Below are positions 1 through 5,890 of a DNA stretch of 5,890 bases, piece by piece. Each line of letters opens with the position of its first letter. The stretch's first letter is position 1. Source of the stretch: Dethiobacter sp. (GTDB taxonomy: Bacteria; Bacillota_D; Dethiobacteria; Dethiobacterales; Dethiobacteraceae); the NCBI GenBank assembly GCA_018333395.1, contig JAGXSQ010000052.1, forward strand, positions 1-5,890, given 5' to 3'. The notes beneath the pieces were generated by a model that searched no databases, was not told the DNA's origin, and was given only the letters and a program-made list of their open reading frames with translations. The position numbers and the translations under genes are program-made.

Positions 1-23
1 TATCAATAGATGGTAGATTTTCT

Positions 24-68
24 TGGTGGAGATGAGGGGAATCGAACCCCTGACCTCTTGAATGCCAT
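24..68 (-). tRNA. 3' half of tRNA-Ala(GGC), truncated; probable attachment-site remnant
   Basis: Read on the minus strand, the sequence runs from the anticodon loop to the 3' end of a tRNA. It has anticodon GGC in the loop ATGGCAT, the 3' strand of the anticodon stem TCAAG, a variable loop, a perfect T arm (AGGGG, loop TTCGATT, CCCCT), the acceptor 3' strand CATCTCC, discriminator A and an encoded CCA. This matches my memory of Firmicute tRNA-Ala(GGC). Upstream of the loop the expected CTTGA stem strand is absent (ATTAC is present and cannot pair), and there is no D arm or 5' acceptor strand, so it cannot be a working tRNA. A break in the anticodon loop that leaves the 3' half is what integrases targeting tRNA genes leave at the far end of an island. 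With this polarity the island would lie to the right (position 69 onward) and the chromosome to the left. The intact partner copy is not in the window. Confidence 0.85.
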
Positions 69-473
69 GTAATACCTCACCTCCTCGGGATTGAGTCCAC
101 GGGGCAGACGTTGCCGGTATTCTTCCTCTTCCGCCTTGTTCAGCTTTGCTGTAGTTCATCTTGCTCATCAGGGCGGCGGCAGCGGGGTTGCCGCTTTGGA
201 CGTACTTCCGCCAGGGTTCTTTCTTGAGCTGCACTTTTAAGAAAGCGAAATTCCAAGACATCTTCTTTCCACGGCGGCGTCATGGGCGTACACTACGATG
301 GGCAGGATTTTTTGCTGGTACTTTTCGTAGAGCCGGGCGAAGTATTTGAACATCCTCCGGTTGTAGTCCGGCCGCCGCTGCGACTGGTTCTACACGTGAA
401 TCAGGATTAGGCCTTCTTCACCTTTGAGGCGGGTTTCTACCAGGATGTCCACCACGTGCTTTTCCTGGTCAAA
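69..473 (-). pseudogene. Decayed Rpn-family PD-(D/E)XK nuclease-like gene (recombination-promoting nuclease / putative transposase family)
   Basis: No intact frame covers this stretch, but minus-strand pieces join into one recognisable protein. From about 473 the frame reads KHVVDILVETRLKGEEG, then LILIHV, a TAG at 390-392, NQSQRRPDYNRRMFKYFARL and KILPIVVYAHDAA. It then shifts near 265 to EDVLEFRFL, again near 240 to VQLKKEPWRKY and NPAAAALMSKMNYSKAEQ, and once more near 150 to EEEEYRQRLPRGLNPEEV. This order is typical of Rpn/Transposase_31-like proteins, which carry a D...ExQ nuclease site. The TAG stands where the catalytic Glu of ExQ is expected (HV-stop-NQ), 19 codons after the Asp of VDILV. 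The first part of the protein is missing, lost at the junction with the DUF499 gene. The end runs directly into the tRNA fragment. The family call rests on remembered motifs; the nonsense codon and frameshifts are visible in the sequence. Confidence 0.75.
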
Positions 474-477
474 TCCC

Positions 478-3400
478 TTATTCTTTCTCAAATCCGTGAC
501 TGATAAACTTCAGGGTCTGGCTGTTTTCGGTCACGGTCCGCACCACGTTGTCCGGAGCGCCGCTTGGGATCTCCGCCTCTATCTCCAGCGTCACCTTTAC
601 CTTCGCGCCTACCAGGCCCTCCAGGTGGACTATCACCTCTTCTGCAATCCGGCCGGCGTCTCGCCCCACCCGGGCGGCATCCAGCTCCACACTGCCATGG
701 AAGCGCTTCGGCCTTGCCGGGCCGACCGGTGCGACGGACGGAGTGCCGGGTGTGGATGTAGGAGTACCGGGCGGGTATGGTCCCGCAAGGCTGCCTGCTG
801 TGCCAGCAGGCCCGCCGTTTCCACCGGTGGGGGTTTGTTCACCTTTTCCCCTATCCAGCTGCCGGCGTGCCACTTCCGGTTTAACAAGGAGCCCCGGCGC
901 GTCGCTGTCGGGGATGGCTACCCGCTGGCCGCAGCGCAGTCCCCGGTAGCGGCCGCTGGCCTCGTCATAGTCCTCCGCATAGGCAAAGCTGTCCTGCTCC
1001 CAGGTAAGCAGAGCCAACCCTTCGCGCATGGCGGCCAGGAGCACTTCCGGTTCTTTCAAGCGCGGCAGGTAGGGGTACCGGGCGAAGTCTTCCACCAGCT
1101 GCCGGATCGAGACATGGTCGCCGCGCCACAGGGGTACCCGGTCAAGTTCCATGCGCAGAGGCGTGGCGGCAAGGCTGGTCACCAGTTGGTCGTCGCCGCG
1201 CAGCTTGCGGCTGGCCCGTTCAGCAAGGGCCTCTTGGCCGTTAAAGCGATAAGGTTGCCACTCCACAGCCCCCTGTGGCGATAGCTGTACGGGTACCAAG
1301 AGCCATTGATAGGCCTCGGGGATGCGCATCAGCAGGGTAGTCTCCGCACTTGACAGCTGCGCTTCCGCCTGCCTTACCTGGTGGGGGGAAAGGTCAAGCC
1401 CTTCCTTTTCGGCAAGAATTGATTTCCAGGCAAGATAACGGCGCGTCGCTTCATCCAGGTCCTGCAGGCGGGTCCTGTCCACAGCCAGGAAAACAAGGGT
1501 ATTGCGGTAAAGGCGGGGCACGTTGCCGCGCATCTCCAGGATCCCTTTCGCTGCTGCCAAGGCTGGGCTGTTCGCTTCCCTGCCGTAGGGGTAATCAATC
1601 CCCAATACTACAAGGCGGGCGTCAAGGTCATCAGGCACCTCTTGACTTAATTGGGGCAGGGGATGGACGCGGCTGAAGTCGCCCCTTTTTTGAACATCCT
1701 TACGCAGGCGGACATCCAGCTCCTTTGCTACGGCATCTGGATCCCGCTTAAGCTGCTCGGCCCGGTCTTCCGCCAGTTTAGTTACCGTAGGTTGGGTCGA
1801 ATACCAGAAACGGGGTCCGTCCTGGTAAAGGTAAGTTGCCGCGGCGGCAAGGCGCCGCAGGGCGTCGCCGAATACGGCCGGCGCTTCGCCCGGCATTACG
1901 CAGCCAAGCTTGATCCGCCGGTCCTCCAGCCCACGGTTGGCCGCCGCAGGCGTGGGCGCGGACCCCAGGTAAATGGTGCGGGCCACACGGCGGCAGGCCG
2001 CCAGCCTCCCCAGGTTAGGCGCCTCCAGGTCAATGCGCTGCGGCAGGGAGTTAGGCCCGTCCACATCCCGGGCGATAACCGGCACCCAGTTATCTGAAAG
2101 GTAACGGGTCAGTTCAAATTGTACCCGCGGGTCGTCGATGGGGACGGTGGAGGGCATGATCAGGGGGTTTCGGTCGCCCTTTTCCCAGAGACTGTGGATT
2201 ACCGCCGCCATGAGACGTAGCACACCCCGCGTGCGCTGAAACTTTGCCAGGGTGGACCAGTCCGTATAGAGACGGTCAAATACTTCCGGATGGATGGGGT
2301 AGGCTGCCTGCAGGCGCTTCTCATAGTCGCTGTCCCGGCATTCGGGCGGAAATTCCTGCTGTTGCGTGCGGTAGAGGTCGTAAAACTGGCCGGCCACCAG
2401 GTCCCGCTCCACGAATTGGGAACGATCCACCAGGGGTTCGAAGAGGCGTCGCCGTACTATTTCAAAACCCTCTTCCGCACTGGCCGGACGCCAGGATGAA
2501 TCCACGCGGCCAACCACATTGCGCAGGCGCTCCAGCGCTTCACGGCCCCGCTGCCCGCCCACCTCGGCGTCGTCAGCCCGGGCGTGGGGTGATGCCGCCG
2601 TATCGGACGCGGGCAAACTGATCACCAGCAAGCACTGCCGCGCCAGCTTCGCCGATTCGGTGAGCACCTGGGCAAAGCTGAACTGGGTCTCAAAACTTCC
2701 CGCCGGCAGGTCGCTTGTGAAGTGCAGCTGCCGGGCGTAGGCCACCCACTCGTCAATTAAGATCAGGCAGGGGCCGTATTCATTGAAGAGATCCCGCAGG
2801 GCGTCACCGGGGCTGGTGGCCCGTTCGTCATCAAGGCGCAAACGGTCATAAGCCTGCCGGCCCCCAAGCTGCCAGGCCAGCTCCCCCCAGAGGGTATGCA
2901 CTACGGTACCGTCTTCCTTGGTAACGGGGCTGCCGGGGGAAATTTTATTGCCTACCAGCACAACGCGTCGTACGGCCGGCAAGCTGGTTTTTCCCGCTTT
3001 TTTCATGATGGTTTCAAGGCCGGGCAGGCCGGTATGGTCCCGGCCGGAAAAGAGATGATAAAGGGCCAGCATGGAGTGGGTTTTGCCGCCGCCGAAATTA
3101 GTCTGAAGCTGTACCACGGGGTCGCCCCCGTCGCCGCTAAGGCGCTCTACCGCGCCAACCAGCAACTGCTGCAGGCTCTCCGTAAGGTAGGTGCGCCGGA
3201 AGAACTCCACCGGGTTGCGGTATTCGTCAGTGCCCTCGCCCAGGTGAACCTGCCAGAGGTCTGCGGCAAACTCGGCCTGCTGGTAACGGCCGCTGGCCAC
3301 ATCGCGGTGGGGATGGACCACCTCGCGCCAAGCCTTGAGATAGCCTGACGCCTTGCTCTCCACGGCTGTGCCGGCGCTCTTGCGTTTCTCGCTGCGCACC

Positions 3401-3834
3401 TGCTCGTCATAACGCACGCGCAACAGCTCCTGCTTCATCTTGTCTGTTTCGGTGGCCTGCGGTGCAGATATGGCGGTCAGCAAACGGGCGGCCGAGTCCA
3501 GGGCGCGGTACGTATCGTCGCCGGAGAAGGCAGCCTGGTGCGCCCACTTGTTACGTACCTCCCGCAGCTCGCTCACCAGGCTGCGCTCGGCATGCCCGAG
3601 AGTCTTACGAAAAACCTCGTTCCACTGCTCCCAAAAGACCTTTAAGATTGCCGCCACATCAAGGTGGGGCTGCTGGCCCTCCGGCCAGCTCAGGTCGCGG
3701 GACCAGTGCTCCGTCACCCGGGTGAGCCAGTATTTGCCGTAATGGGCCGCCAGCTCACGCTCCACAAAAGGGGCCAGCCCATCTTTAAGCAGTTCCAGCG
3801 CTTTGCCGACCCGTTCATGATTGGTAATAGCCAT
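478..3834 (-). CDS. DUF499 family P-loop ATPase with N-terminal Swt1-type HEPN domain
   Basis: A 1118-residue protein, near full length for the family. Residues 1-125 or so form an alpha-helical region ending in RNKWAH (R94, H99), the Rx4H motif of HEPN RNases, and resemble the Swt1-type HEPN domain often found at the front of DUF499 proteins. The ATPase core follows. Its Walker A-like loop is NFGGGKTH (246-253, K251, T252), lacking the usual first glycine as I recall for this family. The Walker B strand is LILIDEW (357-363, D361, E362), and a sensor-like strand LLVISLPASD (402-411) and an Arg-rich segment RLRNVVGR (436-443) follow. A Gly/Pro/Thr-rich linker (998-1041) leads to a conserved-looking C-terminal domain (1042-1118). 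No signal peptide or membrane span is visible, so it is probably cytoplasmic. The ATG at 3834 is preceded by AAGGAG with 6-nt spacing, and the gene starts 30 nt after the hepT stop. DUF499 genes are typical partners of DUF1156 methylases in predicted defence loci. The biochemical role is unknown; ATP hydrolysis and RNase activity are inferred from motifs. Confidence 0.93.
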   Translation of the reverse strand: MAITNHERVGKALELLKDGLAPFVERELAAHYGKYWLTRVTEHWSRDLSWPEGQQPHLDVAAILKVFWEQWNEVFRKTLGHAERSLVSELREVRNKWAHQAAFSGDDTYRALDSAARLLTAISAPQATETDKMKQELLRVRYDEQVRSEKRKSAGTAVESKASGYLKAWREVVHPHRDVASGRYQQAEFAADLWQVHLGEGTDEYRNPVEFFRRTYLTESLQQLLVGAVERLSGDGGDPVVQLQTNFGGGKTHSMLALYHLFSGRDHTGLPGLETIMKKAGKTSLPAVRRVVLVGNKISPGSPVTKEDGTVVHTLWGELAWQLGGRQAYDRLRLDDERATSPGDALRDLFNEYGPCLILIDEWVAYARQLHFTSDLPAGSFETQFSFAQVLTESAKLARQCLLVISLPASDTAASPHARADDAEVGGQRGREALERLRNVVGRVDSSWRPASAEEGFEIVRRRLFEPLVDRSQFVERDLVAGQFYDLYRTQQQEFPPECRDSDYEKRLQAAYPIHPEVFDRLYTDWSTLAKFQRTRGVLRLMAAVIHSLWEKGDRNPLIMPSTVPIDDPRVQFELTRYLSDNWVPVIARDVDGPNSLPQRIDLEAPNLGRLAACRRVARTIYLGSAPTPAAANRGLEDRRIKLGCVMPGEAPAVFGDALRRLAAAATYLYQDGPRFWYSTQPTVTKLAEDRAEQLKRDPDAVAKELDVRLRKDVQKRGDFSRVHPLPQLSQEVPDDLDARLVVLGIDYPYGREANSPALAAAKGILEMRGNVPRLYRNTLVFLAVDRTRLQDLDEATRRYLAWKSILAEKEGLDLSPHQVRQAEAQLSSAETTLLMRIPEAYQWLLVPVQLSPQGAVEWQPYRFNGQEALAERASRKLRGDDQLVTSLAATPLRMELDRVPLWRGDHVSIRQLVEDFARYPYLPRLKEPEVLLAAMREGLALLTWEQDSFAYAEDYDEASGRYRGLRCGQRVAIPDSDAPGLLVKPEVARRQLDRGKGEQTPTGGNGGPAGTAGSLAGPYPPGTPTSTPGTPSVAPVGPARPKRFHGSVELDAARVGRDAGRIAEEVIVHLEGLVGAKVKVTLEIEAEIPSGAPDNVVRTVTENSQTLKFISHGFEKE
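793..811. repeat. Perfect 8-bp hairpin inside the DUF499 linker coding region
   Basis: GCCTGCTG, a 3-nt loop TGC, and CAGCAGGC form a perfect inverted repeat. It lies in the DNA for the low-complexity Gly/Pro/Thr linker of the DUF499 protein (coding positions about 712-843). Possible roles are none (chance in GC-rich low-complexity DNA), a translational pause, or the trace of a small inserted palindrome. Nothing in the sequence decides between these. Confidence 0.5.
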
Positions 3835-3864
3835 GATTTACTCCTTGCCAAAAATATTTTGCGG

Positions 3865-4293
3865 CTACTCTAATTCCCCTATAGCCCGGGCCAGGTATTG
3901 CCGCAAGAGATCAAAATCTCCCAACTCCTGGCAAAGGTTCTGATGCAGTTGAGCTACATCCACCGCCCAATACAAGTGCACCAGACGGTTACGAAAGCGT
4001 GCCATATTAGCCAAACGCTCGCCAAATGCATGAGGAAACAACCCATTCTCCGTCAGGACGCGAAATGTGTCCGCGTAATCTTCGGGCACTCTTAAACCGT
4101 TTTTGCTGATCAGGTGATTACCTATATCTATGGCCGCCTCAATGGCCACAATAAAATTGTACTTGGCACTGGCTACTTTATGAGGATCCTGCGCAAACTT
4201 CTCCAGAGTAATTGTCGCCAACTCCCGCAAAAGTCTTAACGCTGCACTTTGTTCTGAAATGAGACGGGTCAATTTTTCGGCCTCATATCTCAA
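3865..4293 (-). CDS. hepT: HepT-like HEPN ribonuclease toxin (DUF86 family)
   Basis: A 142-residue, mainly helical protein of typical HepT length. It carries RNRLVHLY (R101, H106, Y108), the RX4HXY signature of HepT toxins. In characterised HepT/MntA pairs the Arg and His form the RNase site at a dimer interface, and the Tyr is AMPylated by the partner nucleotidyltransferase to silence it. DUF86-type features also include the AIEAAIDIGNHLI helix (50-62). The start is a TTG at 4293, and an in-frame TGA begins only two codons upstream, so no earlier start is possible. An AAAGGAAG ribosome binding site lies 9 nt before it. The TTG overlaps the last 11 nt of mntA, which suggests translational coupling. 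The stop is 30 nt before the DUF499 start. Base composition is clearly more AT-rich than the DUF499 and DUF1156 genes, suggesting a separate origin. Target RNA is unknown. Confidence 0.92.
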   Translation of the reverse strand: MRYEAEKLTRLISEQSAALRLLRELATITLEKFAQDPHKVASAKYNFIVAIEAAIDIGNHLISKNGLRVPEDYADTFRVLTENGLFPHAFGERLANMARFRNRLVHLYWAVDVAQLHQNLCQELGDFDLLRQYLARAIGELE

Positions 4294-4711
4294 GGTTCAA
4301 CACTTCCTTTAAATAACGCCGGCGGAGGGGATAAAAATCAAAATAGCGGCTGAAAGTAGCTGTCTCAAATTCAACTCGCAAACTTTCGTCTTTATCGACC
4401 AGCTTTTGCCCTTTTTTAATAACGCTGTAACGGAAGGTGTCTGGCGCATGGTTTAGAACCCGTACATCAACGGGGAAAGGAAACAGCTTATGTAAGCTCG
4501 CTTCTAAGCTTACCTCGCATTGCAGATAATTAATCTCACTTTCCGTTTTAAGAAAGACGGCAACATCTATATCGCCAAATTTGTCCTTCGGGGAAAACGA
4601 CCCGTGGACATAGGCAAAAATCACGCGCGGATCCTGGGCTAGCACTTCAGTCAACCTTTCTTTTATGCTGCCGTATTCTTCCTGGGTAACCTGATAGCGT
4701 TTCACGGTCAC
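4283..4711 (-). CDS. mntA: MntA-like minimal nucleotidyltransferase antitoxin
   Basis: A small nucleotidyltransferase of 142 residues (144 from the GTG at 4717). From the 4711 start, the active-site motif is HGSF...GDIDVAVF, with G37, S38, D47 and D49, and a third acidic residue is likely D82 in FPVDVRVL. Characterised MntA proteins use ATP to AMPylate the RX4HXY tyrosine of HepT and so neutralise it. The spacing here is GSX8DXD, two residues shorter than the textbook GSX10DXD. I recall related HGSF...DIDVAV proteins, so the protein is probably active. An in-frame TAA at 4724-4726 limits the start to GTG at 4717, 4711 or 4705. The AAAAGGGGG site abuts 4717 (no spacing) but sits 5 nt from 4711, so 4711 is chosen. 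The end overlaps hepT by 11 nt. Antitoxin-first order and overlap are usual for this pair. A promoter lies just upstream. Confidence 0.92.
   Translation of the reverse strand: MTVKRYQVTQEEYGSIKERLTEVLAQDPRVIFAYVHGSFSPKDKFGDIDVAVFLKTESEINYLQCEVSLEASLHKLFPFPVDVRVLNHAPDTFRYSVIKKGQKLVDKDESLRVEFETATFSRYFDFYPLRRRYLKEVLNLEI
4303..4310 (-). promoter_or_regulatory. Ribosome binding site of hepT within the mntA end
   Basis: The minus strand reads AAAGGAAG, inside the last codons of mntA and 9 nt before the TTG start of hepT. It supports this TTG as a real start and allows coupling of toxin translation to that of the antitoxin. Confidence 0.6.
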
Positions 4712-4716
4712 AAACA

Positions 4717-4725
4717 CCCCCTTTT
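4717..4725 (-). promoter_or_regulatory. Ribosome binding site that decides the mntA start
   Basis: The minus strand reads AAAAGGGGG, one mismatch from the AAAGGAGG consensus. It ends on the first GTG (4717), too close for initiation there, and lies 5 nt before the second GTG (4711) and 11 nt before the third (4705). This favours 4711. Confidence 0.6.
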
Positions 4726-4760
4726 AGCATGTAAAACCGCGATATTGGCTCTTTATACAT

Positions 4761-4790
4761 ATATTAGCACAGTACAAATTGCCCTGGCAA
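4761..4790 (-). promoter_or_regulatory. Sigma-A-like promoter for mntA-hepT-DUF499
   Basis: On the minus strand the -35 box TTGCCA (4785-4790) and -10 box TAATAT (4761-4766) are 18 nt apart. TGC directly before the -10 gives an extended -10 (TGn) match. Transcription would start around 4753-4756, leaving a leader of about 40 nt before mntA. With the tight gene spacing downstream it could drive mntA, hepT and the DUF499 gene together, separately from the DUF1156 gene. Judged by eye only. Confidence 0.6.
4779..4790. promoter_or_regulatory. Palindrome over the -35 box, possible operator
   Basis: TTGCC-CT-GGCAA is a perfect 5-bp inverted repeat that includes the -35 hexamer on the minus strand. 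A second, wider inverted repeat, CGATATT (4740-4746) and AATATCG (4792-4798), flanks the whole promoter and likely start site. Either could bind a repressor, for example an autoregulatory toxin-antitoxin complex. Short palindromes also occur by chance, so this is tentative. Confidence 0.35.
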
Positions 4791-4814
4791 GAATATCGGC
4801 GGGATATGTGAACC

Positions 4815-4838
4815 GGGAGCGCGGGCGTCCCTGCCCGC
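4815..4838. repeat. Palindromic repeat copy 1 (REP-like)
   Basis: GGGAGCGCGGGC, then GTCCCT, then GCCCGC. The arms GCGGGC and GCCCGC (4821-4826, 4833-4838) can form a 6-bp GC hairpin with a 6-nt loop. It lies between the DUF1156 stop and the mntA promoter, 40 bp start-to-start from copy 2 and in the same orientation. There is no T-run after it on the minus strand, so it is not a classic terminator, though it could still slow transcription or protect the DUF1156 mRNA end. Confidence 0.8.
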
Positions 4839-4854
4839 CGTCCTCTACGGCCCT

Positions 4855-4877
4855 GGGAGCGCGGGCATCCTGCCCGC
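4855..4877. repeat. Palindromic repeat copy 2 (REP-like)
   Basis: Same element as copy 1 in the same orientation: GGGAGCGCGGGC, ATCCT, GCCCGC. It differs by one G-to-A change and one missing C in the loop, while both hairpin arms are unchanged. Variation confined to the loop with conserved arms suggests the hairpin matters to how the repeat spreads or survives. Confidence 0.8.
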
Positions 4878-4940
4878 ATTACCAAACAGCCCGGCACTAA
4901 TATTCATCTTGCTTAAAGCAGACCGCAATAAGAGGAGTGT

Positions 4941-5890
4941 CTACTCGGCGAAAATATCTAGCTGCTGGTCCAAGGGTTTCCGTTCCTGGGCCAGCCGGGC
5001 AATCTCGGGCCAGCTCTGCACCAGACCGTTATAAGCCAGGGCTGCTTGCGCCCATTTTTTCCGGTCACAGACAGTGTAGAGACGGTAGGCCAGCTCCCGG
5101 GCGGTATCGGCCCGGCCACGGAGTTTGGCTACCAGTGCGGCGGCGGCGGCTTCCCCCTGCTCCAGCACCCGGATCAAGTGGTGCACCATCTCCCAGACGG
5201 TGAGGCGCGGATCCTTTTCCGGGTCCCAGTCCGGCGCCAGCTCACCGGATTTAAGCAGCCTTACCTTGCCCCCTCTGGCATGGATGATTCCCGCCTCCTG
5301 CATCCCCTGCACGCTGGTGTTCTTGGCCTTGGATAAGGTTTCGGCCACACCGTATTCAGCGGGCTCAAACCCGTGCTGCTCAAACCAGGCCAAGGCCCAG
5401 CGGGTATCGGCGTCAAAAGCTCCTTCCTGCTCAGCCAGCACCTCGTCCAGCACCTGGTTGATCAGGGTAAGAGCCTCGCGTACCCGGACAGACTTGCCGT
5501 CGGCGTCGAGCACTTTGGCGTAGCGCGTATAGACGGCCATGCCCGGGCCGATGGCCGCCTGGGCCAGGTCCACCGGGGCGATGTTGCCTTCCTGAAGGTG
5601 GCGCAGCGCCTTGGGCAGCTCGGCTTTAAGCACGTTGACAAACTCCCGGCGCGTGGCGGTGGGCGCGTCGGCCGATCGCTTGCGGCAGACGAGGACGATG
5701 CTGGAGGCCAGAACATTGGTACCGGTCTTCATGCCGAAATCTCGCTCTGTGCGCATCGGCCATGTCCCGCTGATCGAAAAGCCGGCTTGGACAACGGCGT
5801 CGAGGAAGGTTTCCCAACCTGTGGACCTGGGGGCTGTAGACCTGGGAGCGCGGGCGTCCCGCCCGCCGTTTTCAGATGCGGCCGAGACGG
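4941..5890 (-). CDS. DUF1156-type DNA methyltransferase, C-terminal part (runs off the window)
   Basis: The frame is open from the right edge (first full codon at 5888) to TAG at 4941, giving 315 residues. The ATG at 5756 is internal, because the frame continues upstream with family-like sequence, STGWETFLDAVVQAGFSI and SGTWPMRTE. This is followed by GTNVLASSIVLVCRKR, PVDLAQAAIGPGMAVYTRY and a VREALTLINQVLDEV helix. These are landmarks I recall from the C-terminal portion of DUF1156 adenine-specific DNA methylases, usually about 900-1000 residues. The catalytic DPPY-type motif and SAM-binding region would lie outside the window, so activity cannot be judged. The end (KPLDQQLDIFAE) looks complete. 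Residues just before STGWE include GGRDARAPR, encoded by an inserted palindromic repeat (5844-5866), and a short duplication PRSTAPRST. DUF1156 proteins are regular partners of DUF499 ATPases. The next gene, mntA, follows after a 229-nt gap holding two more repeat copies and a promoter. Confidence 0.88.
   Translation of the reverse strand, partial: VSAASENGGRDARAPRSTAPRSTGWETFLDAVVQAGFSISGTWPMRTERDFGMKTGTNVLASSIVLVCRKRSADAPTATRREFVNVLKAELPKALRHLQEGNIAPVDLAQAAIGPGMAVYTRYAKVLDADGKSVRVREALTLINQVLDEVLAEQEGAFDADTRWALAWFEQHGFEPAEYGVAETLSKAKNTSVQGMQEAGIIHARGGKVRLLKSGELAPDWDPEKDPRLTVWEMVHHLIRVLEQGEAAAAALVAKLRGRADTARELAYRLYTVCDRKKWAQAALAYNGLVQSWPEIARLAQERKPLDQQLDIFAE
5819..5848. repeat. 15-bp imperfect tandem repeat within the DUF1156 gene
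   Basis: Two adjacent 15-bp units, 5819-5833 and 5834-5848, match at 13 of 15 positions (unit CTGTRGACCTGGGRG). On the minus strand they encode PRSTA and PRSTG, so the duplication keeps frame. The distal unit overlaps the start of palindromic repeat copy 3, which suggests that it arose together with that insertion, perhaps as a target duplication or by slippage. Confidence 0.7.
5844..5866. repeat. Palindromic repeat copy 3, in frame inside the DUF1156 coding sequence
   Basis: GGGAGCGCGGGC, GTCCC, GCCCGC: the same element as copies 1 and 2 and in the same orientation, with hairpin arms intact and one T fewer than copy 1. Similarity to copy 1 extends right through CGT. Read on the minus strand it adds the residues GGRDARAP to the methylase without a stop or frameshift. 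It sits just before the STGWE motif, where family members, as I recall, have a variable linker. Confidence 0.8.

Follow-up and report, generated by a model that had tools for sequence, protein, structure and literature searches.

The 5,890-nucleotide (nt) stretch of Dethiobacter sp. DNA analysed here (the window: the short contig JAGXSQ010000052.1, positions 1 to 5,890) carries on its minus strand the C-terminal part of hmaB, then mntA, hepT and hmaC. Judged from its profile matches, it is part of an Hma operon, a candidate defence system that already has a name. In other lineages, pairs of an MNT nucleotidyltransferase and a HEPN protein belonging to different subfamilies have entered, left and re-entered the slot between hmaB and hmaC. 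Different toxin-antidote pairs are met at one spot, which therefore has the look of an exchange slot and not of a permanent part of the machine; the pair in the window appears to be a foreign-looking, optional and swappable module, not a fixed component of Hma.

Hma was named by PADLOC in 2021 as a three-gene operon encoding the HmaA helicase, the HmaB methylase and the HmaC ATPase (PMC8565338), and is the Type-1 DUF499 BREX-related (BR) system of a 2026 paper in Nucleic Acids Research (PMC12839542). The DUF1156-DUF499 partnership that an earlier note on this DNA put forward as a candidate defence pair is thus a named system. The text of the 2026 paper counts 2446 Type-1 taxa, 1370 of them with a HEPN fused to the ATPase, dates the first notice back to 2013 (PMC3710099), and lists HEPN genes, some fused to MNT, among the auxiliary effectors of BREX and BR systems, beside or inside the core loci, with a proposed backup suicidal role. 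HEPN backup effectors near these genes are therefore already in print, which takes away part of the note's remark that no system of this composition had been described. The other part stands as far as that text goes: it describes no fixed slot before hmaC, no exchange of HEPN types and no comparison of occupied with empty loci. A literature search likewise returned no account of MNT-HEPN pairs in a fixed slot at the hmaB-hmaC junction, the figures and supplement of PMC12839542 lying outside its reach.

The main sample consists of the 80 best of at least 576 confirmed HmaC loci, drawn unaimed from one-genome-per-species contigs. A larger set pools several samples into 127 loci with a HEPN-fused HmaC and at least 900 nt of upstream DNA; it leaves out 21 duplicate loci, 14 HEPN-fused loci with less than 900 nt upstream and 9 loci whose HmaC is truncated. 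Loci with a non-fused HmaC were counted apart (49, besides 5 that were too short). MNT, HEPN or both occur within 1400 nt upstream of hmaC, on its strand, in 16 of the 127. Complete pairs, of two subfamilies other than that of the window, lie between hmaB and hmaC in 13 of them; as three of the pooled samples were aimed at relatives of known positives, 13/127 overstates the frequency, which is 6/80 in the unaimed sample. These pairs escaped phmmer searches of the 80 loci with the window HepT and MntA, and were revealed by reading the gap genes and then by profiles. With types checked by Pfam on representatives and positions taken from profile searches, nine are of PF01934 type (L045, L046, L056, L061, L073, L078, L175, L177 and L178) and four of PF05168 type (L165, L180, L224 and L228). 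The idea that the latter four have an MNT without a HEPN partner was rejected, the partner being the PF05168-type HEPN itself.

Strand and order are the same in all 13 pairs, which lie on the hmaC strand and have the MNT gene 5' of the HEPN gene. In 12 of them 4-26 nt lie between the end of the HEPN match and hmaC; the exception, L175, has its complete pair 753 nt upstream of hmaC and a second, incomplete pair nearer. The gap between hmaB and hmaC makes up 6.5% of the non-core DNA of the 80 unaimed loci and holds six of their eight pairs (binomial p 2e-6, a post hoc value uncorrected for kinship). The remaining two are found on the opposite strand some 8 kb downstream (L005) and in the hmaA-hmaB interval (L004:3365-3936, an MNT with a PF05168-type HEPN). 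The PF01934-type slot HEPNs share no more than 21-27% identity with HepT of the window, and the RX4HXY motif is intact in the window protein and in all nine complete slot HEPNs of this type. The last three of the 16 loci (L032, L167 and L176) contain MNT or MNT pieces only. In L167, a 72-residue frame on the minus strand (5170-5385) starts like a slot MNT, ends (by eye) like a slot HepT and stops 9 nt before hmaC; it looks like what is left of a pair after an internal deletion. A Zeta-toxin-like gene precedes the MNT-HEPN pair in the slot of L073 (8157-8885), so slots can stack several toxin modules. By phylum, two pairs were found among 30 Chloroflexota loci listed, five of which repeat other loci. 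No MNT or HEPN was found in nine Nitrospirota and Pseudomonadota loci (L254, L257 and L259 being repeats, 0/6 new), and no pair directly before hmaC in 30 Bacillota loci, where a non-fused HmaC locus (L109) has a pair further off and an HmaC fragment (L103) is accompanied by an MNT.

The history of the slot is one of turnover. In a FastTree tree of 143 HmaC proteins, the window, the PF01934-type loci and the PF05168-type loci stand in separate places, and presence of the pair changes at least nine times among the 122 of its 143 rows that have a known slot state; several branches are long. Close relatives show the changes directly. L045 has a pair and L245 has an empty slot, with hmaB ending 6 nt before hmaC, and their hmaC genes are 95% identical in DNA. 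In L078 (from Thiocapsa sp. KS1) and L178, HmaC is 98% identical, HepT 57% and MNT 80%, and DNA identity steps from 49-79% in the slot to 92-100% from the start of hmaC onward. Even the two genes of a pair can recombine, since the MNT of L061 is nearest to that of L045 (86%) and its HepT to those of L177 and L078 (72 and 71%). Pair identity and HmaC identity do not go together in the slot type sampled best (28 non-independent comparisons of eight loci, Spearman 0.16, p 0.40). Exchange may also reach into hmaC. The HEPN domains of L176 and L177 are 66% identical and the rest of their HmaC 93%; the L177 domain is 87% identical to that of L073, with only 84% for the remaining HmaC. Residues 1-125 fall into two groups that cut across the kinship of the rest of the protein (L056, L073 and L177 versus L045, L046, L078, L175, L176, L178 and L197), and where the domain differs DNA identity is low over the first 300 nt of hmaC. 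This suggests that the HEPN domain of HmaC is itself exchangeable.

The slot also receives genes of other kinds. Among the 71 of the 80 loci with hmaB on the contig, hmaB and hmaC are separated by less than 150 nt in 38 and by at least 150 nt in 33. According to Pfam, slot genes encode a ParE-like toxin, a PIN protein, AAA_21 with DUF4276, DuOB with DUF488, a kinase, a Schlafen AlbA_2 protein and a RAMP protein, and transposase-like genes are recognized by eye. In L019 about 9 kb (864-9901) separate hmaB from hmaC, with a RAMP-superfamily protein and two more large proteins, similar-looking by eye, perhaps a type III CRISPR-like effector set. On plasmids of Thermus brockianus and Chlorohelix (L173 and L174), the slots hold a hypothetical protein, a helix-turn-helix (HTH) regulator and a sigma factor, and a four-helix-bundle protein, respectively.

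In the window, the occupants of the slot are recognizable as a toxin and its antitoxin. HepT passes the NCBIfam HepT_toxin cut-off (110.8 versus 60 bits), matches PF01934 (1.6e-30) and aligns with Shewanella HepT (6m6u/5yep, 2e-7), with its RX4HXY sequence, RNRLVHLY, in register; the motif is present in 119 of 120 listed homologues. MntA passes the MntA_antitoxin cut-off more narrowly (64.7 versus 60 bits). It has no match in the PDB by sequence, and its AlphaFold model (pLDDT 87) has 15 PDB matches at E<=1e-3, all of them chains of HEPN-MNT complex entries, with TM scores of 0.51-0.63 by query length and root-mean-square deviations mostly above 8 Å, a likeness at the level of the fold. The published scheme takes PF01934 and PF08780 pairs as Class I and PF05168 pairs as Class II HEPN/MNT, and in the Shewanella pair MntA adds AMP to a HepT tyrosine beside the RNase site (PMC7641770). 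With that type VII system (SO_3166/SO_3165; PDB 5yep, 6m6u, 7aer) the window pair shares an MNT gene upstream of HEPN, RX4HXY in HepT, and the MNT fold with GS and DXD; it differs in lying inside a defence operon and in an MntA loop two residues shorter, GSX8DXD instead of the published GSX10DXD. Because of this spacing, and although the equivalog cut-off is passed and the fold matches, the pair is filed as an MNT-HEPN pair of a close subfamily and not as a proven Class I member. A regular expression gives X8 in 11 and X10 in 3 of the 14 window-type MntA proteins, counts valid for this family, in which the alignment agrees, and not extended to the slot MNTs (the expression takes the first DXD). 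The hepT gene starts with TTG, overlapping the mntA stop, and mntA with GTG at 4717 or 4711.

The cassette stands out by composition: its GC content, taken in 400-nt steps within 3801-4800, is 0.44-0.48, and that of the steps within hmaC and hmaB is 0.58-0.68. Between hmaB and mntA there is a weak promoter-like site (4790-4761, minus strand); a scan of 3700-5100 finds two such sites versus 1.4 expected, not above chance. A GC-rich palindromic repeat occurs twice in the same gap (4810-4831 and 4850-4877) and once inside the hmaB frame (5839-5866), where it translates as GGRDARAP and two aligned relatives have other residues.

The earlier note took MntA/HepT for a built-in part of the system, possibly a guard. 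Most loci have no pair, and phmmer (E up to 1e-3) detects no window-type HepT or MntA in the 80 best HmaC loci; for this reason, and because the best sampled slot type does not co-diverge with HmaC, the pair is not a constant part. The note's test, whether the trees of pair and core agree, fails for that type. A count of pairs between DUF1156 and DUF499, also proposed there, does yield recurrent MNT-HEPN pairs, of other types than that of the window. This recurrence speaks as well against the note's opposite case, a passenger of one strain, at least in its simple form. The window-type MntA family comprises 14 proteins, whose longest contigs measure at most 69,159 nt. Among the eight closest HmaC relatives (P0136-P0143, in the best 120 of 8000 listed), four (P0136, the closest at 89%, P0139, P0141 and P0143) have a longest contig exceeding that length, and on the contigs of these four, to which the comparison is confined, there is no detectable window-type MntA, unless hmaC lies at a contig end. 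Absence in relatives and low GC fit a recent acquisition of the cassette. Chimeric assembly was weighed as an explanation of the window: the window-type MntA cluster is present on six contigs, and for the other five no hmaC could be demonstrated. The best Bacillota relative of MntA, L118, is 72% identical, and L160, the whole of its 6976-nt contig, has no HmaC or HmaB match.

From position, turnover and motifs, which are observed, we infer a function. The most likely one, held tentatively, is that of an exchangeable backup abortive layer co-expressed with hmaC. MntA would transfer AMP from ATP to the tyrosine of HepT that adjoins the RX4H active site, and so keep the RNase off; the window HepT retains the tyrosine that accepts AMP in the Shewanella pair. 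If infection halted synthesis or blocked MntA, or if the operon were shut off or damaged, unmodified HepT would appear and cut RNA, and growth would stop once the DNA-targeting Hma core (methylase, helicase-nuclease and ATPase) had failed. The HEPN domain of HmaC would be a further RNase distinct from HepT, and phage counter-defence would be the selective force behind the turnover in the slot. The idea that pairs replace the nuclease of the helicase is unsupported: a helicase with a NOV_C end, which, in line with the DUF3883 of the 2013 paper, we take to be a nuclease-like domain, is present in all four pair-bearing loci checked, as it is in both pair-less ones. Since it is kept, the pair would add to the primary effector. 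A bolder version, which we regard as rather doubtful, makes the slot before hmaC a dedicated effector slot, in which HmaA, HmaB and HmaC form a sensing and processing core for interchangeable MNT-controlled HEPN modules, and HmaC or its exchangeable HEPN signals to the occupant. If true, this would be a cassette-swapping defence, with toxin control by AMP transfer wired into a restriction-type machine.

The main rival to a backup layer is addiction: the pair would stabilise the Hma operon or its island because cells that lost it would be killed or arrested, without any sensing of phage, and its insertion within the operon would make the loss of hmaC costly. This is possible, if less so than the backup role. 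MntA and HepT do match toxin-antitoxin families by NCBIfam and by fold, the cassette is low in GC and mobile-looking, and window-type MntA relatives live outside Hma loci (12 of 12 Bacillota loci, and L160). Yet the lone MNT or MNT pieces of L167, L032 and L176 suggest that pairs decay while hmaC stays, L245 has an empty slot beside an intact hmaC, and addiction does not predict recurrence at one slot, where six of eight pairs are found. An unlikely alternative is a merely permissive junction, which tolerates inserts and on which abundant mobile MNT-HEPN pairs land with no functional link to Hma. The variety of genes in the 33 of 71 loci with long spacing is in keeping with it, as is an hmaA-hmaB interval of at least 150 nt in 45 of 53 loci; the constant strand and order of the pairs and their tight fit to hmaC in 12 of 13 are not, nor is the fact that two Pfam HEPN types occupy the slot in different regions of the HmaC tree, and several other slot genes also come from conflict families. 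It is very improbable that MntA also or mainly regulates the ATPase by adding AMP to its fused HEPN: a HEPN gene lies nearest to hmaC, HmaC begins with HEPN and both have RX4H in the window, but the acceptor tyrosine, expected two residues after the histidine, is found in 0 of 143 aligned HmaC, so MntA is unlikely to switch this domain in the same way, and the 1.4 kb upstream of hmaC is free of MNT in most loci examined.

Several observations weigh against an exchangeable backup layer. Most Hma loci have no pair, and PF01934 HEPN genes are common anyway, in 33 of 50 genomes searched. The slot takes many other genes, and may therefore simply tolerate inserts. Not every pair is swapped: L045 and L046 show no identity step (79-92% over the slot and the end of hmaB, 83-96% in hmaC), so some pairs are inherited together with hmaC. 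RX4HXY is lacking in all four PF05168-type slot HEPNs, and RNase activity thus cannot be read from them. A tie of the pair to HEPN-fused HmaC is unsupported (16/127 versus 2/49 non-fused, p 0.16), the two non-fused positives being L109, with a pair at least 680 nt upstream in another gene order, and the fragmentary locus L214. As for the window itself, its MntA departs from the published motif spacing, the 223-nt gap before mntA leaves room for a promoter of the pair's own, and the Bacillota relatives of its MntA have no HmaC or HmaB match in flanks of up to 1.5 kb (12 of 12 loci).

The core genes of the window are well recognized (Table 1), and open reading frames and profiles confirm the four minus-strand genes in the order first given, with mntA and hepT overlapping by 11 nt and hepT ending 30 nt before hmaC. 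HmaC is a Swt1-like HEPN fused to a DUF499 AAA+ ATPase: HEPN_Swt1 matches residues 11-123 (5.4e-41), DUF499 is also matched (1.5e-26), and the PADLOC HmaC profile scores 1130.5 bits over residues 166-1116; by sequence the protein has no match in the PDB. Of 143 aligned HmaC, 142 keep the R and H of its HEPN motif (RNKWAHQ, 94-100) and all keep GGGKT at 248 and the Walker B DE at 361-362. The fusion to HEPN and the HmaC and HmaB profiles are what the window shares with Hma (Type-1 BR); it differs in the mntA-hepT pair between the two genes, and the helicase is not visible within it. HmaA is found upstream in relatives, and its gene, if present, would lie beyond position 5890. The methylase fragment matches PADLOC HmaB (4.6e-126, model positions 669-965 of 967, the last third) and can be aligned with HmaB of L001 and L245. 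Its reading as a DUF1156 C-terminus holds in that sense; Pfam finds no domain in it and NCBIfam DUF1156_antiphage scores 25.5 bits, far below the cut-off of 1000, so the label rests on the HmaB C-terminal models.

Table 1. Features of the window and the evidence for each.
Feature	Positions	Strand	Basis
hmaC (1118 amino acids)	478-3834	-	Pfam, PADLOC HmaC, motifs
hepT, HEPN RNase toxin	3865-4293	-	PF01934, NCBIfam HepT_toxin, Shewanella HepT match
mntA, MNT nucleotidyltransferase antitoxin	4283-4717	-	NCBIfam MntA_antitoxin, alignment, fold match
hmaB (DUF1156 adenine methylase), C-terminal 315 residues	4941-5888	-	PADLOC HmaB; 5' part beyond the window
hmaB-mntA intergenic stretch, 223 nt	4718-4940	none	GC-rich palindromic repeat in two copies, promoter scan
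Occupied hmaB-hmaC slot, low-GC cassette	3835-4940	none	GC steps, slot comparison

Downstream of hmaC, a 61-nt stretch (24-84, minus strand) with a CCA end resembles the ends of tmRNA (Rfam RF00023, 35.2 bits, gathering score 47). ARAGORN calls no gene there and finds no tRNA in the window; the stretch could be the leftover of an integration site in ssrA. An 87-codon open frame (1-261, minus strand) runs off the window edge. It is reminiscent of relics of Rpn-type transposase-like genes, but Pfam finds nothing in it at E up to 1.

The recurrence of MNT-HEPN pairs in one slot of a candidate, restriction-like anti-phage operon ties them to defence by position. The occupied and empty loci L045 and L245, and the swapped loci L078 and L178, provide natural comparisons in which the contribution of the pair can be tested directly. 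Taken together, these loci suggest that Hma-type systems evolve by swapping small toxin modules beside a stable core.

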